Shown: in pieces, positions 900 through 31,677 of the stretch
Numbering within the stretch: position 1 is the first letter of the stretch
How the letters are laid out: every line of letters begins with the position of its first letter
Origin: Nitriliruptoraceae bacterium
GTDB taxonomy: Bacteria > Actinomycetota > Nitriliruptoria > Nitriliruptorales > Nitriliruptoraceae
DNA: 39,028 bases
Assembly: GCA_007122985.1 (NCBI GenBank)
Contig: SKSM01000048.1
Location: forward strand, 1-39,028
Direction: 5' to 3'
Program-made: the position numbers and the translations under genes
The notes under the pieces: model-generated
Seen by the model: only the letters and a program-made list of their open reading frames with translations
Told to the model about the DNA's origin: nothing
The model's database searches: none

Positions 900-1005
900 T
901 CTGCGGGAATCGTTGCCGTCTGCAGCAGCGTCCGGCACGCGGTGTCTGGCGCTGCCGCGCTGGCTGCGCAACTCGACCCGATCGCGACGAGCATGGGGAG
1001 GCATC

Positions 1006-1692
1006 ATGGAGTTGGACGTCTGGTCACAGGGAACGTTCGCGCGGACGATCGTCCCCGTGCGGCGGCTGCTGATCGCCGGGTTCACGGGGCGCGATCAGGA
1101 CGCCGTCACGGCGCACGTCGAGGAGCTCAAGGAGCACGGCATCGCGGGACCCAAGCGGGTGCCGAGCCTGTTCGCCGGCGTTCCCGCCCGCGTGACCACC
1201 TCGGGGAGCATCGTCGTCCACGGAGACCGGACATCGGGCGAGGCCGAGTTCGTCGTAACCCGGATCGACGGGCAGGTCCTCGTCGGTGTCGGCTCCGACC
1301 ACACCGACCGCGAGCTCGAGGCGCACTCGATCATCAAGTCCAAGCAGGTCTGTGAGAAGCCGGTCGGCTCGGTCTGGTGGCGGGCCGACGACCTGCTCGA
1401 CCACTGGGACGAGCTCGAATTGCGTGCGACGGCCTGGACACCGGATGGCGAGGAGACCGAGTACCAGTCCGGCTCCGTGGCGGCCATGCTCTCGCTCGAC
1501 GACCTGCTCGAGGAGGTCGAGAACCGTGTCGGCGCGATCGACGGCGACGTGCTCTACTCCGGCACGCTCCCCCTGCTCACCGACGACTTCGTCTGTGGCC
1601 CCAGGTTCCGCTCCGAGCTGATCGATCCGGTGCTCAACCGCACCCTGACCTGCGACTACGTCGTCGAACAGCTGCCGGTGCTCGACGACTGA
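1006..1692 (+). CDS. DUF2848 family protein
   Basis: ATG at 1006 preceded by GGGGAG; protein has RRLLIAGFTGRDQDAVTAHVEELKEHGI, SGEAEFVVTRIDGQVLVGVGSDHTDRELEAHSIIKSKQVCEKPV, resembling the DUF2848 family as I recall it. Confidence 0.75.
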   Translation: MELDVWSQGTFARTIVPVRRLLIAGFTGRDQDAVTAHVEELKEHGIAGPKRVPSLFAGVPARVTTSGSIVVHGDRTSGEAEFVVTRIDGQVLVGVGSDHTDRELEAHSIIKSKQVCEKPVGSVWWRADDLLDHWDELELRATAWTPDGEETEYQSGSVAAMLSLDDLLEEVENRVGAIDGDVLYSGTLPLLTDDFVCGPRFRSELIDPVLNRTLTCDYVVEQLPVLDD

Positions 1693-1799: not shown

Positions 1800-2945
1800 G
1801 TGGCCGATGACCGCCTTGGCGATGAGGTTCTGCTGCACCTGGCTGGTTCCCTCGACGATGGTCAGCTGCTTGGAGTCGCGGTAGTACAGCTCGAGGGGGT
1901 GGTCCTCGGTGTAGCCGGCGGCCCCGAGCATCTGCAGGCACTCACTGGCGGCACGGACGGCCAGTTCGGTCGCGCGGTACTTGGCCATCGACAGTTGGCC
2001 CATGTGCTGGATGTCGTGCTGGCCGTGGTCGACCATCATCGCGGCACGGTAGGTCAGCAGCCGGCAGGCCTCGATCTCCGCAGCGAGATTGGCGATCATC
2101 CACTGGATGCCCTGGAAGTCGGCGATCGTCTGGCCGAACGCCGGGCGGTCCTTGACGTACTCGGTCGCGTACATCAACGCGCCCTCCGCCAGGCCGATGC
2201 CCCGGGCGCCCACGATCGGCCGCATCGAGTTGAGGGCGAACATCGCGTTCTTGAAGCCGTCGCGGCCGAGGGCGACGATGTTCTCCTTGGGGACCCACGC
2301 GCCGTCGTAGACGATCTCGCAGGTGGGGACGCCACGGACGCCGAGCTTCTTGTCGATGCTCCCGACCGAGACCCCCGGCTCCTCGGCCTCGACGATGAAG
2401 GCGCCGAAACCGTCATGGCCGGCCTCGAGGTCGGTCCGGGCGAAGACGAGGTACCAGTCGGCGACGGTGCCGCCCGAGATCCAGGACTTGGTGCCGGTGA
2501 TGCGGTAGCCGTCACCGTCCGGCTCGGCGCGGGTGGTCTGGCCGGCGACGTCCGAGCCGGCATGCGGCTCGCTCAGGGTGAACGCGCCGCGGCGCTCGCC
2601 GGTGGCCGTTGTCTGCACGTAGCGCCGCTTCTGATCGTCCGTCCCGGCGATGATGATCGGTGAGGTGGGCAGGCGGCTCAGCAGCAGGATCAGGGCCGAG
2701 GCGTTGCAGTACTTGGCGACCTCCTCGATGGCGAGCACCAGTCCGAGCGCGCCGGCGCCGTTGCCGCCATACTCCTCGGGGATCGCACAGGCGAGCAGCC
2801 CCGCGTCGGCGAACAGTCGGAAGGTGTCCTCTGGATACTCGCCGCTGCTGTCGAGCTCACGTGCGCGTGGCTGGACGTGGTCCTGCGCCATGCGGCGCAC
2901 CACCTTCTGCAGTTCCTGGTGCTCGGGGGAGAGTTCGAAGTCCAT
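1782..2945 (-). CDS. Acyl-CoA dehydrogenase
   Basis: MDFELSPEHQELQKVVRRMAQDHVQPRARELD..., FTLSEPHAGSDVAGQTTRAEPDGDGYRITGTKSWISGG, AAGYTEDHPLELYYRDSKQLTIVEGTSQVQQNLIAK: classic ACAD motifs. Confidence 0.95.
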   Translation of the reverse strand: MDFELSPEHQELQKVVRRMAQDHVQPRARELDSSGEYPEDTFRLFADAGLLACAIPEEYGGNGAGALGLVLAIEEVAKYCNASALILLLSRLPTSPIIIAGTDDQKRRYVQTTATGERRGAFTLSEPHAGSDVAGQTTRAEPDGDGYRITGTKSWISGGTVADWYLVFARTDLEAGHDGFGAFIVEAEEPGVSVGSIDKKLGVRGVPTCEIVYDGAWVPKENIVALGRDGFKNAMFALNSMRPIVGARGIGLAEGALMYATEYVKDRPAFGQTIADFQGIQWMIANLAAEIEACRLLTYRAAMMVDHGQHDIQHMGQLSMAKYRATELAVRAASECLQMLGAAGYTEDHPLELYYRDSKQLTIVEGTSQVQQNLIAKAVIGHDLWWD

Positions 2946-2976
2946 CGTGTGCGTTCACCCGGTCGACGACATGGTT

Positions 2977-2991
2977 GTGAATAACATATAT
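2977..2991 (-). promoter_or_regulatory. Candidate operator site B (ATATATGTTATTCAC on minus strand)
   Basis: AT-rich island between divergent ACAD and CoxG-like genes; 11/15 match to site G. Confidence 0.5.
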
Positions 2992-3022
2992 CATCTTGCG
3001 TCCCCACTGGGAGGTCCGACAC

Positions 3023-3688
3023 GTGCGTCTTGAAAACGAGTTCGAGGTCAATGCTCCGGTCGAGCAGGTCTGGCAGGTGCTCGAGGATGTGCCGCGCGTC
3101 GCGCGGTGCATGCCGGGCGCCGAGCTGATCTCCTCCGACGGCAATCAGCACGAGGGCACCGTCAAGGCACGCCTCGGGCCGATGCGGGTGACCTACCAGG
3201 GCACGGCGACCGTGACCGAGCTCGACAGCTCGGCCCACCGTGCGGCGATGACCGCCGAGGGGCGCGAGACCCGCGGACAGGGCCGGGCGAAGGCCGAGGT
3301 CAGCCTCAGCGCTGAGGAGCAGGACGGCCGCACCAAGGTCGCGATCGTCACCGACCTCGACATCACCGGCCGGGTCGCCCAGTTCGGTCGGGGCCTGCTC
3401 GAGGACGTCTCGACCCAGCTCATCGACGACTTCGCGGCGCAGCTCGAGCGTGAGGTCGTCGGCGCCGGCGCGGAGCCGGCCGCCGCAGCGGCGCCTGGAG
3501 CAGACGCTGCCCCGGCCGACGACCGTGGTCCGACGACGCCGTCCGCGCCGTCGACCTCCCCGAACGGTGCGTCCGATGCGATCGACGTCGGCTCGCTGCT
3601 GTCCACGGTTGCTGCCCGACCCGCGGTGGCCTTCAGTGGCGGGGTGCTGCTCGGACTGCTCCTCGGCTGGCTGTTCGGGCGTCGCTGA
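3023..3688 (+). CDS. CoxG-like SRPBCC family protein with C-terminal transmembrane helix
   Basis: GTG at 3023; VRLENEFEVNAPVEQVWQVLEDVPRVARCMPGAEL ... GTVKARLGPMRVTYQGTATV; low-complexity Ala/Pro linker then PAVAFSGGVLLGLLLGWLFGRR. Confidence 0.85.
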   Translation: MRLENEFEVNAPVEQVWQVLEDVPRVARCMPGAELISSDGNQHEGTVKARLGPMRVTYQGTATVTELDSSAHRAAMTAEGRETRGQGRAKAEVSLSAEEQDGRTKVAIVTDLDITGRVAQFGRGLLEDVSTQLIDDFAAQLEREVVGAGAEPAAAAAPGADAAPADDRGPTTPSAPSTSPNGASDAIDVGSLLSTVAARPAVAFSGGVLLGLLLGWLFGRR

Positions 3689-3697
3689 GTACGGCGA

Positions 3698-5944
<2,247 letters not shown>

Positions 5945-27814: not shown

Positions 27815-28052
27815 GAGCGGCACCAGCGTAGATGTCGCCGCCGGTTCGATCGTCGCCGGACGGGCGGGTGGCGCGGGACCACGTGCCATGCAGCGTCGTG
27901 GTCGGCAGGGACCGCCGGTGGTGCGGTGTGCACCCACCCACCAGGTCTCCGGCTGCGAACCGGAAGCGAACGCGGCCGGTGATGGTTGCCTGCCTGGAAC
28001 CGGCACCGTGGAATCGGACGAGCGCCGGACCGGACCTACCCGGGAGGAGCGT

Positions 28053-28796
28053 GTGGGCGAGGCGAGCACCGGCCAGCGCGGCGTCGACGCCGCGCAGACG
28101 TCGCCGTCATCGAGCCGTGCCGTCAGGGTGCTGCGCTCACCGTGGACACGGATCAGCCTGCTCGTGCTGCTGGTCGCGGTCGGCGTGACGTTGGCGACGA
28201 CGGCCGACGACCTGTCGGTCGAGGGCATCCGGGCGACGGTCGACGGCGTCGGTCCGCTCGCGCCGCTGGCCTATGTGCTGCTCTACACCGTCGCGGCCGT
28301 GCTGTTGCTGCCCGGGACGCCGTTCACGGTGACCGCCGGGGTGGTGTTCGGACCGGCCCTCGGGCTGGTCGTCGCGCTGGCCGGCGCGACGATGGGAGCG
28401 ACCGGCTCGTTCCTGGTCGGCCGCGCGGTGGGTCGCGACGCCGTCGCCGAGCTCGCCGGGGACCGCGTCCAGCGCATCGATCAGGCGCTGGCCCGCCGCG
28501 GATTCGTGGCCGTGCTGATCGTGCGGCTGATCCCGCTGTTCCCCTTCAACGTCCTCAACCTCGTGTGCGGCGTCACGGCGCTGCGGCTGCGCGACTACGT
28601 GCTCGGCACCGCGATCGGGATCGTGCCCGGATCCGCGCTGCTGGCCGTCGCCGGGGGCAGCATCGACGACCCGACCTCGCCGGTGTTCATCGGTAGCGTG
28701 ACAGGCTTCATCGTCCTTGCGGTGGTGACCGGTCTCATCGCCCGGCGGCTGCGACCCGAAGACGTCGCGGGGTCGGACGGTCCCGGCAGGGCCTGA
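28053..28796 (+). CDS. TVP38/TMEM64 (DedA-like) family membrane protein
   Basis: GTG 28053 after GGGAGG; LLLPGTPFTVTAGVVFGPALGLVVALAGATMGATGSFLVGRAVGRD ... LIPLFPFNVLNLVCGVTALRLRDYVLGTAIGIVPGS. Confidence 0.9.
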   Translation: MGEASTGQRGVDAAQTSPSSSRAVRVLRSPWTRISLLVLLVAVGVTLATTADDLSVEGIRATVDGVGPLAPLAYVLLYTVAAVLLLPGTPFTVTAGVVFGPALGLVVALAGATMGATGSFLVGRAVGRDAVAELAGDRVQRIDQALARRGFVAVLIVRLIPLFPFNVLNLVCGVTALRLRDYVLGTAIGIVPGSALLAVAGGSIDDPTSPVFIGSVTGFIVLAVVTGLIARRLRPEDVAGSDGPGRA

Positions 28797-28848: not shown

Positions 28849-29469
28849 ATGCTGGATGCGAGCCTGCGGCCGCGGTTGGACCCCGTGCTGGTCTGGATCG
28901 CCCGGGGTCTGCAGCAGCTGGGCGTCGCGCCGATGGCGCTGACCCTAACCGGACTGGTCCTCGGGCTCGCTGCTGCCGGCGCCGCCGCACTTGCCTGGTG
29001 GTGGACGGCGCTGGCGTTGTGGCTGATCTCCCGGCTGTTCGATGGCCTGGACGGTCCGCTGGCCAGACTGCGCGGTGGCGGGACCGCTTTCGGCGGGTAC
29101 GCGGATTTCGTCGCGGACCTGACCGTCTACGGCGCGTTCGTGGTCGGCTGTGCGCTCGGCCAGCCGGATGCGATCACGCCCCTGCTGGTCCTGCTGCTGA
29201 CCTACTACGTCAACGGTGCATCGCTGCTGGCGTACTCGGCAGCCGCCGAACATGCCCGGATCAAGAGCCCCGACGAGCGCAGCTTCCACTTCACCCGTGG
29301 GCTCGCCGAAGGGACCGAGACGATCCTCGCGCACAGCCTGTTCGTGCTGTTCCCGGGACGCATGGGCCTGCTGGCGTGGGTGTTCGCCGCCGTCGTGGCG
29401 GTCACGATCGTGCAACGGCTGATGCTCGCCCGGCGGGTGCTTCGCGGCGCCGACGAGCTCACCGCGTGA
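28849..29469 (+). CDS. CDP-alcohol phosphatidyltransferase family protein
   Basis: Exact DGx2ARx8Gx3Dx3D motif: DGPLARLRGGGTAFGGYADFVAD; several TM helices. Confidence 0.92.
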   Translation: MLDASLRPRLDPVLVWIARGLQQLGVAPMALTLTGLVLGLAAAGAAALAWWWTALALWLISRLFDGLDGPLARLRGGGTAFGGYADFVADLTVYGAFVVGCALGQPDAITPLLVLLLTYYVNGASLLAYSAAAEHARIKSPDERSFHFTRGLAEGTETILAHSLFVLFPGRMGLLAWVFAAVVAVTIVQRLMLARRVLRGADELTA

Positions 29470-30898
29470 GCAGCCGGCGCGCCACCAGCAGCAGCCGCGA
29501 CAGCGGGCGCAGCCGTGCGAGGTCGGCCTGCAACTGGGTGAGCGACGCCGCCGCGACGTCCTCGCTCCAGGTGGGGTAGGCGTGGGTCGAGGCTCGCGCG
29601 ATGGTTGCGAGCTTCGCGTCGTCGGCCATCCAGGCGACGATCTCGCCGATGGTCTCCCCGGCCCGCGGCCCCACCACCGTCGCTCCGACGATGCGGCCCT
29701 TGTGGTCGCTGACCAGCCGCGCGAAGCCGCCGGTCGCGTCGGCGGTCACCGCCCGGTCGAGCGTGGTGTGCTCGGCGTCGCGCACGACCGCACGCCGGCC
29801 GAACCGCTCCCGGGCCTGGTCGGCGGTCAGCCCCACCCGGGCGACCTCCGGGCTGGTGAACGTCACCCACGGGATGCGCTCGTGATCGACCGTGGCGCGC
29901 AGGCCGAACAGCGCGTTCTGGACGACCGTCGCCCCGTGGGTGGAGGCGACGTGGGTGAACGGCAGCGCGAGCGTGACGTCGCCCGCCGCGTAGATGCGGG
30001 GGTTGGAGGTGCGCAGCCGGTCGTCGACCACGACCGCGCCGCGGTCGTCGAGCTCCACCCCGGCGGCCTCCACACCGAGCCCGGCGGTGCGTGGCGCGCG
30101 GCCGACCGCGACCAGCAGCCGGTCGAACGGCAGCCGCTGCTCGCCGGCCCCGGCGTCGACGACCAGGTGCCTGGTGCCGTCGGCGTCGACCTCGGCGCGC
30201 ACCGCCCGTGTCCCGACGCGGACCTCGACTCCTTCGGTCTCCAGGTGGTCTGCGATCAGCTCGCTGGCCGTTGGCTCCTCCTTGATCAGCAGCCGGTCGG
30301 TCATCTCCACGATCGTGACCTGCGAGCCGAGGCGGGCGAACGCCTGCCCGAGCTCGCAGCCGATCGCGCCGCCGCCGAGCACCACCAGCCGTTCGGGCAG
30401 CTCGGTCAGGTCCCACACCGACTCGTTGGTCAGCGGGTCGACCGCGTCGAAGCCGGGCAGGCCGGGCACGACCGGTGCGGAGCCGGTGGCGATCAGCGCC
30501 CGGCGGAAGGGGATCCGGTGGCCGTCGACCTCGACGGCGTCCGGCGCGACCAGCGTCGCGTGGCCGTGCACGACCTCGATGCCCAGTGAGCGAAGCCGGT
30601 GCGGCGAGTCGTGTGGCTCGAGCACGCCGATCGCGTCCTTGACGTGCTGCATCACGGCGCCCAGATCGACCTCCACCCGTGCCGTCGAGACGCCGAGGTG
30701 CTGCGAGGTGCGCGCGACGTGCGCCGCCGACGCGGCCTCGATCAGCGCCTTCGACGGGACGCAGCCGGACCAGAGGCAGTCCCCACCGGTGCGTGCCTGC
30801 TCTATCAGGGCCACGCGCGCGCCCTGTCCGGCGGCACCGATCGCGGCCACCAGGCCGGCGGTGCCCCCGCCGATCACCGCCAGGTCGACCCGTGCCAC
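29459..30898 (-). CDS. Flavin-dependent pyridine nucleotide-disulfide oxidoreductase (mercuric reductase / dihydrolipoamide dehydrogenase-like)
   Basis: DLAVIGGGTAGLVAAIGAAGQGARVALIE, redox site GGDCLWSGCVPSKALI, YAAGDVTLALPFTHVASTHG, AYPTWSEDVAAAS. Confidence 0.93.
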   Translation of the reverse strand: MARVDLAVIGGGTAGLVAAIGAAGQGARVALIEQARTGGDCLWSGCVPSKALIEAASAAHVARTSQHLGVSTARVEVDLGAVMQHVKDAIGVLEPHDSPHRLRSLGIEVVHGHATLVAPDAVEVDGHRIPFRRALIATGSAPVVPGLPGFDAVDPLTNESVWDLTELPERLVVLGGGAIGCELGQAFARLGSQVTIVEMTDRLLIKEEPTASELIADHLETEGVEVRVGTRAVRAEVDADGTRHLVVDAGAGEQRLPFDRLLVAVGRAPRTAGLGVEAAGVELDDRGAVVVDDRLRTSNPRIYAAGDVTLALPFTHVASTHGATVVQNALFGLRATVDHERIPWVTFTSPEVARVGLTADQARERFGRRAVVRDAEHTTLDRAVTADATGGFARLVSDHKGRIVGATVVGPRAGETIGEIVAWMADDAKLATIARASTHAYPTWSEDVAAASLTQLQADLARLRPLSRLLLVARRLLTR

Positions 30899-30937: not shown

Positions 30938-31498
30938 TCAGTCACCGCCCGCGGCGTCGGTCGCGGCCCGTAGCAGCTCGGCGACCGGCGGGCGGTCGTC
31001 CCGTGTCTGGGGGCGTGCGTAGGCGATGTGCTGGTCGGGTCCGACGACGAAGTCACCGCCGAGCTGCAGCAGGTCCACCCCGCCGATGGTGAGCCGTTCC
31101 CCGGCCTGCAGCAGCCGGCCGTACACCCGGTAGACGTTCGGGTCCATCCAGATCTTCCACCACGGCGCGCGCTGCAGGCCCCAGCCCGTGTAGTGCCGGC
31201 GTTCGCGGTCGACCAGGACGGGGAACGGCAGGTCGTCGAGCTCGCGCAGCAGCGTGCGGCGCAACAGCGCCGGGTCGTCGAACACGACGAACAGCGCCGT
31301 CGCGCCGACCGCCTCGAAGCGGGGCCAGCGTTCGCGCACCTTCACGAGGTGCGCACGGCAGATCAGTCAACCGGCGTGGCGCAGGAACGACACCAGCACC
31401 GGGCTGCCGGCGGGGTCGTCGAGCGCCGTCACCTCGCCGTCGAGGTCGGGCAGGCGCAGCTGCGGTGCCGGTTCGCCGATACGGGGAGCAGCGGTCAC
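30938..31498 (-). CDS. Predicted selenoprotein: peroxiredoxin-like (AhpC/TSA superfamily) with in-frame UGA (Sec, codon 44) in a U-L-I-C motif
   Basis: GTG 31498 with GGAG upstream; VTAAPRIGEPAPQLRLPDLDGEVTALDDPAGSPVLVSFLRHAG[UGA]LICRAHLVKVRERWPRFEAVGATALFVVFDDPALLRRTLLRELDDLPFPVLVDRERRHYTGWGLQ... The track splits it into 31367..31606 and 30938..31345, both in the same frame separated by only one TGA (31367-31369). Confidence 0.8.
31334..31354 (-). promoter_or_regulatory. Candidate bacterial SECIS hairpin downstream of the in-frame UGA
   Basis: Minus strand GCGCACCT-CGTGA-AGGTGCGC: 8-bp perfect stem (plus a flanking U-G), 5-nt loop with G at loop position 2; loop starts after 20 nt downstream of UGA. 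Confidence 0.7.
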
Positions 31499-31677
31499 AT
31501 CGATCTCCGTTGAGGGGAAGTGGTGGGGGGGCAGCGGGCATCCGCTCGCCCCCGGACACAACGAGTTCGGTGCCGAGTTGCTTCCGTCCGGTCGTCTGGT
31601 CGGCACCTGCCCGTCCGACCGGGCGTGGTCCCGCGGTCGGCCCTACCGTCGTACGGGCAGACGACGAGGAGGCGTGG

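Follow-up and report, generated by a model that had tools for sequence, protein, structure and literature searches.

On the minus strand of the window (the whole 39,028-nt stretch of Nitriliruptoraceae DNA analyzed here), two open reading frames, 31367..31606 and 30938..31345, lie in one frame and are separated by a single TGA, raising the question of whether this triplet terminates one protein or is decoded within a longer one. The shared frame, pointed out in the first-pass annotation, was borne out by a frame check; the limits given for the two open reading frames were not. About 36 codons at the 5′ end of the upstream frame are leader sequence, with the likely start at 31498 (a coordinate that the annotation itself had also used), and 31345, the supposed start of the downstream frame, is a valine codon inside an invariant HLVKV motif and no gene start. 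Direct reading of the window and the read-through translation yield one 186-codon gene running from 31498 to 30938 and composed, in this order, of a GTG start, 43 codons, TGA (31369–31367), 142 codons, and a TGA stop (30940–30938). The TGA at codon 44 is the sole interruption of this frame.

30938..31498, minus strand: predicted selenoprotein gene, Prx-like/SelL-related UxxC oxidoreductase, 186 codons (read-through translation, profile matches, orthologues, AlphaFold2)
31367..31369, minus strand: in-frame TGA, codon 44, putative selenocysteine at the first position of U-L-I-C (TGA column conservation)
31505..31508, minus strand: Shine-Dalgarno-like GGAG, 6 nt 5′ of the GTG at 31498 (direct sequence reading)

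The gene very probably encodes a selenoprotein with selenocysteine (Sec) at UGA codon 44 (probability roughly 0.96, judged from sequence data). The first-pass annotation had proposed a 186-residue redox protein with Sec at this codon, a proposal now supported by conservation of the TGA, by a downstream hairpin, and by tRNA-Sec, selA, and selB in the same genome.

Conservation of the UGA was assessed in 101 genomes, namely the source genome and 100 relatives. Orthologues are carried by 20 of these: the window's own gene, 18 intact genes elsewhere, which share 54–74% identity with the window protein, and one (in G051) split over two frames. All 19 intact genes contain a single internal stop, always TGA and never TAA or TAG, at the same alignment column and in the near-constant context VSFLRHAG-U-LIC-xxHLVKV. 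The protein is conserved on both sides of the TGA across orthologues, and most codons drift synonymously. TGA, again never TAA or TAG, occupies the same column in 12 remoter relatives (roughly 28–46% identity), three of them from Acidimicrobiia/Acidimicrobiales assemblies, while two remote homologues (G004 and G019) carry Cys there; homologues with either UGA or Cys at the codon 44 column, which the first-pass annotation had suggested seeking, are thus at hand. A single-sequence scan of genome contigs returned four loci only, of which the one on SKJX01000234 is that of G003 and was counted once. The draft state of the source assembly (348 contigs) and the frame-split orthologue in G051 might speak for a stop that arose by chance, through faulty sequencing or assembly, or as a nonsense mutation in a pseudogene. 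Such origins are effectively excluded because one TGA column recurs across genera and families, in 18 further intact orthologues and 12 remoter relatives with the flanking protein conserved, so that the sequencing error named earlier as a possible refutation did not hold.

Two further arrangements were seen among the more distant loci. Three genes (L049, L050, and L051) form a separate Acidimicrobiia clade with the motif HIH-U-LPC, in which the TGA is kept in 3/3 and a putative membrane protein begins within each gene, with a 4-nt overlap. At another locus (L059; G088:C130:55500-57700), two SelL-related genes stand in tandem with one in-frame TGA each, their matches lying ∼60 nt apart.

The read-through product matches the Pfam family AhpC-TSA (PF00578) with 56 bits (cut-off 26) and AhpC-TSA_2 with 39 bits, and Redoxin was also matched. 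An AlphaFold2 model (33 sequences) reached a pLDDT of 92.9 and a pTM of 0.90, and its top PDB matches were Bcp/PrxQ-type peroxiredoxins, AhpC/TSA proteins, and ResA. The earlier claim that readthrough gives a continuous protein of peroxiredoxin/thioredoxin fold is therefore sustained by the Pfam matches and by a model with a pLDDT of 93. Residue 44 directly precedes helix 45–56, the first active-site helix of the model, which is the canonical thioredoxin-fold active-site position. Gene callers would split the locus into a short N-terminal peptide that stops at the UGA and a 135-aa protein initiated at GTG 31345. This two-protein reading has next to no probability, since in a high-confidence model the UGA together with the conserved GULIC and HLVKV makes up the active-site loop and the first helix of a single domain, GTG 31345 sits in a hairpin loop, the Cys homologues are single proteins, and the frame is continuous in all homologues, leaving no place for the downstream start once raised against a selenoprotein.

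Decoding of UGA as Sec in bacteria calls attention to the sequence immediately 3′ of the codon, where a hairpin was found.

31334..31354, minus strand: bacterial SECIS (bSECIS)-like hairpin, 8-bp stem GCGCACCT/AGGTGCGC, loop CGUGA (5 nt), UGA-to-loop distance 20 nt (fold, invariance, covariation)

The published bSECIS model describes an apical loop of 3–9 nt, a stem of 4–16 bp, G in the first two loop positions, a distance of 16–37 nt from the UGA, and a minimum free energy of at most −7.5 kcal/mol (PMC13188914). With a 5-nt loop, 8 bp, G at loop position 2, a 20-nt distance, and −16.1 kcal/mol, the hairpin fits this model, and the search for a bSECIS element urged by the first-pass annotation thus returned a candidate. 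The z-score of the fold is −2.4 in a 44-nt stretch; two longer stretches gave −1.0 and −1.4, which are weak alone. The 15 nt CACCTCGTGAAGGTG, corresponding to the inner hairpin, are invariant in 19/19 genes, synonymous sites included. Codons 6–10 after the UGA contain no synonymous change (Leu CTC in 19/19 and, twice, Val GTG in 19/19), whereas other conserved Leu and Val positions of the gene mostly show a mixture of CTG/CTC and GTG/GTC. The three outer stem pairs covary, with 9 cells changed on both sides versus 3.1 expected from shuffles and 0–3 in slid controls. The argument for a putative SECIS element is carried by this covariation and by synonymous conservation, and not by the z-scores of the longer stretches.

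The source genome, a draft of 348 contigs that is 75.6% complete, was searched for the Sec machinery. A tRNA-Sec with anticodon UCA scored 67 bits (cut-off 47), with which ARAGORN concurs; selA scored 498 bits (cut-off 268) and selB 262 bits (cut-off 242), and the latter two genes adjoin on one contig (C253). No selD was found in this 76% complete assembly, while all three congeners (G001, G002, and G003) possess it, as do most relatives. Of the machinery that the first-pass annotation proposed to look for, selA, selB, and tRNA-Sec (selC) are thus present above their cut-offs, and selD is present in congeners but was not found in the source assembly. Two selD candidates in the source genome were not counted as selD, the best (C332) being HypE/ThiL-like and the other a piece of PurM. 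The selD genes of G001–G003 (e.g., G003:C206:18017-18964) contain an in-frame TGA and apparently encode selenoproteins themselves; selD lacks this TGA in family members G010, G012, G018, and others, a possible Sec/Cys switch within one family.

Among the 101 genomes, tRNA-Sec or selA was detected in 20/20 carriers of the selenoprotein gene versus 32/46 noncarriers of the class sample (p = 0.003), and within the family tRNA-Sec was detected in 14/14 carriers versus 11/21 noncarriers (p = 0.002), p-values that treat genomes as independent and ignore kinship. Physical linkage to sel genes is stronger evidence than these co-occurrences. A single contig of G034 bears the selenoprotein gene (272–823), selC (965–1056, minus strand), selD (1272–2315), and selA (2456–3784), and the same gene order is found in G012. 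Both selC and selD adjoin the selenoprotein gene in G031 and G027, and selD adjoins it in G008, so that the selenoprotein gene adjoins selC and/or selD in five genomes, four of which belong to one related genus. Under a stricter filter, tRNA-Sec was not found in G040 and G050, though both carry the selenoprotein gene and both have selA and selD matches. In G050, which retains the selenoprotein gene, selA is broken into two neighboring fragments (G050:C20:345521-346817).

Stop codons have been reassigned in other bacteria, and the UGA might in principle be read without selenium, by a near-cognate Trp or Cys tRNA or under a reassigned code. Such a reading is highly improbable, given that most of these genes terminate in TGA themselves, that a tRNA-Sec with a UCA anticodon is present, that the SECIS-like hairpin is conserved, and that carriers have Sec machinery. 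For insertion of Sec, the well-supported scheme is that the hairpin located 20 nt 3′ of the UGA would bring in SelB with Sec-tRNA(UCA), and codon 44 would be read as selenocysteine.

The chemistry of the product depends on which residue of the active-site motif is replaced. True peroxiredoxins carry a TxxC motif whose last residue is the peroxidatic Cys (PMC1088965). When the window protein was aligned with the genome's own Bcp-like paralogue, Sec44 fell on the Thr of TxxC and Cys47 on the peroxidatic Cys. The first-pass annotation had correctly put the UGA at the first position of U-L-I-C, yet its equation of this position with the catalytic Cys needs qualifying for true peroxiredoxins, where the UGA replaces Thr; the canonical TxxC/TxxU peroxiredoxin motif is absent from the window protein. 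Because Sec takes the first motif position, the protein is, judged by its motif, a Prx-like UxxC oxidoreductase rather than a bona fide peroxiredoxin. Sec-containing peroxiredoxins (TxxU) share fold and superfamily with it, but carry Sec last in the motif, not first. With the known Prx-like UxxC/UxxU selenoproteins (PMC1088965, PMC9312934, and PMC13188914), it has in common an AhpC/TSA (PF00578) domain, Sec first in UxxC, and a bacterial SECIS directly downstream; the window clade is distinct from them in its GULIC motif, its invariant HLVKV, and its occurrence in Nitriliruptoria and relatives. The best NCBIfam model was SelL_rel_redox (NF040769), at 97.4 bits under a curated cut-off of 120, so that the window protein, although most similar to this SelL-related family, is not a member by the 120-bit rule. 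The alignment spans nearly the whole model, and 33/33 aligned members match it at E ≤ 0.001. SelL proper carries UxxU, unlike the UxxC of the window protein.

From motif and fold, the Sec44 selenolate would attack a disulfide or hydroperoxide, and Cys47 would resolve the intermediate, giving a Sec–Cys bond within U-L-I-C. That bond would then be reduced by a cellular donor, for which the adjacent NAD(P)H-flavin disulfide reductase (29459–30898) might, as a guess, be put forward. The protein could alternatively act mainly as a hydroperoxide reductase (peroxidase) instead of a thiol/selenol:disulfide oxidoreductase, in keeping with its Pfam AhpC-TSA family and with peroxiredoxins as its best fold matches; this is a serious possibility but the less likely one, since replacement of Thr by Sec turns the peroxiredoxin TxxC into a thioredoxin-like UxxC, and the literature assigns Prx-like UxxC proteins to the thiol:disulfide oxidoreductases (PMC9312934 and PMC13188914). 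Oxidoreductase activity with a disulfide, rather than a peroxide, as the main substrate is favored with modest confidence.

Genes next to the selenoprotein gene were considered as indications of its partners.

29459..30898, minus strand: flavin pyridine nucleotide-disulphide oxidoreductase (MerA/dihydrolipoyl dehydrogenase-like), 39 nt downstream of the selenoprotein gene (Pfam Pyr_redox_2, 228 bits)
28849..29469, plus strand: CDP-alcohol phosphatidyltransferase family protein, YnjF-like (40% identity over 172 aa to E. coli YnjF; synteny)
27888..28796, plus strand: VTT-domain (DedA/TVP38) membrane protein, YdjX/YdjZ-like (Pfam VTT_dom, 95 bits; 28% identity to YdjZ; synteny)

The best NCBIfam matches of the reductase, PRK06370.1-3 (454 bits) and MerA (386 bits), are both under cut-off. 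This neighbor is conserved in G002, G003, and G050 and lies within 14 kb in G004, G019, G035, G040, and G046, suggesting a candidate partner or electron source. Close to the gene, G012, G027, G051, and G004 have reductases of 36–39% identity, and G019 has a second reductase; these may be paralogues of the window's reductase and were left out of the neighbor count. A YnjB homologue (in G046, 38% identical to E. coli YnjB and over the cut-off of NF008633) begins inside the selenoprotein gene in G046 and G040, with a 4-nt overlap, and is followed by an ATPase and then the reductase; the selenoprotein/YnjB/ATPase/reductase set falls within ∼8 kb in G035 and G019 and ∼15 kb in G004.

This neighborhood resembles the E. 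coli ydjXYZ-ynjABCDEF cluster, with which it shares the VTT protein and the YnjF-like enzyme and, in relatives, also YnjB, the permease, and the ATPase. The E. coli K-12 cluster, in contrast, has the AhpD-like YnjA inside and no annotated flavin reductase, and it lies ∼6 kb from selD; the actinobacterial version also occurs without a selenoprotein (G026). YnjB co-occurs with the selenoprotein gene (11/20 carriers versus 6/81 other genomes; p = 7e-6), an association kept as a lead only, because the YnjB proteins fall into two or more divergent types and the cluster occurs in G026, where the gene is absent. In G026, the whole cluster including the reductase is present, and neither the selenoprotein gene nor tRNA-Sec was detected, so that in this genome at least the reductase serves some other function, and the selenoprotein can be no more than an optional partner. 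A role of the selenoprotein as the redox component of a little-studied ydj/ynj-like system (YnjBCD ABC importer, VTT protein, YnjF-like lipid enzyme, and dedicated flavin disulfide reductase) is an unlikely proposal, and a literature search on ynj/ydj genes and selenium returned nothing linking them.

The group to which the protein belongs (Prx-like UxxC, SelL-related) is already known; what appears to be new is the Nitriliruptoria lineage, the placement of the clade below the NCBI model cut-off, and the neighborhood lead. Our literature search returned no report of the GULIC/HLVKV clade or of such a selenoprotein in Nitriliruptoria. The clade scores under the NCBI curated cut-off for its nearest family, and automatic annotation therefore probably splits the gene. 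With these data, Nitriliruptoria and related Actinomycetota gain a selenoprotein clade with secure support, whose invariant hairpin offers a clean putative bacterial SECIS for probing actinobacterial SelB. The shared neighborhood is a first handle on ydj/ynj-type clusters; were the selenoprotein indeed their redox component, a selenocysteine relay would serve substrate import or modification in these bacteria.
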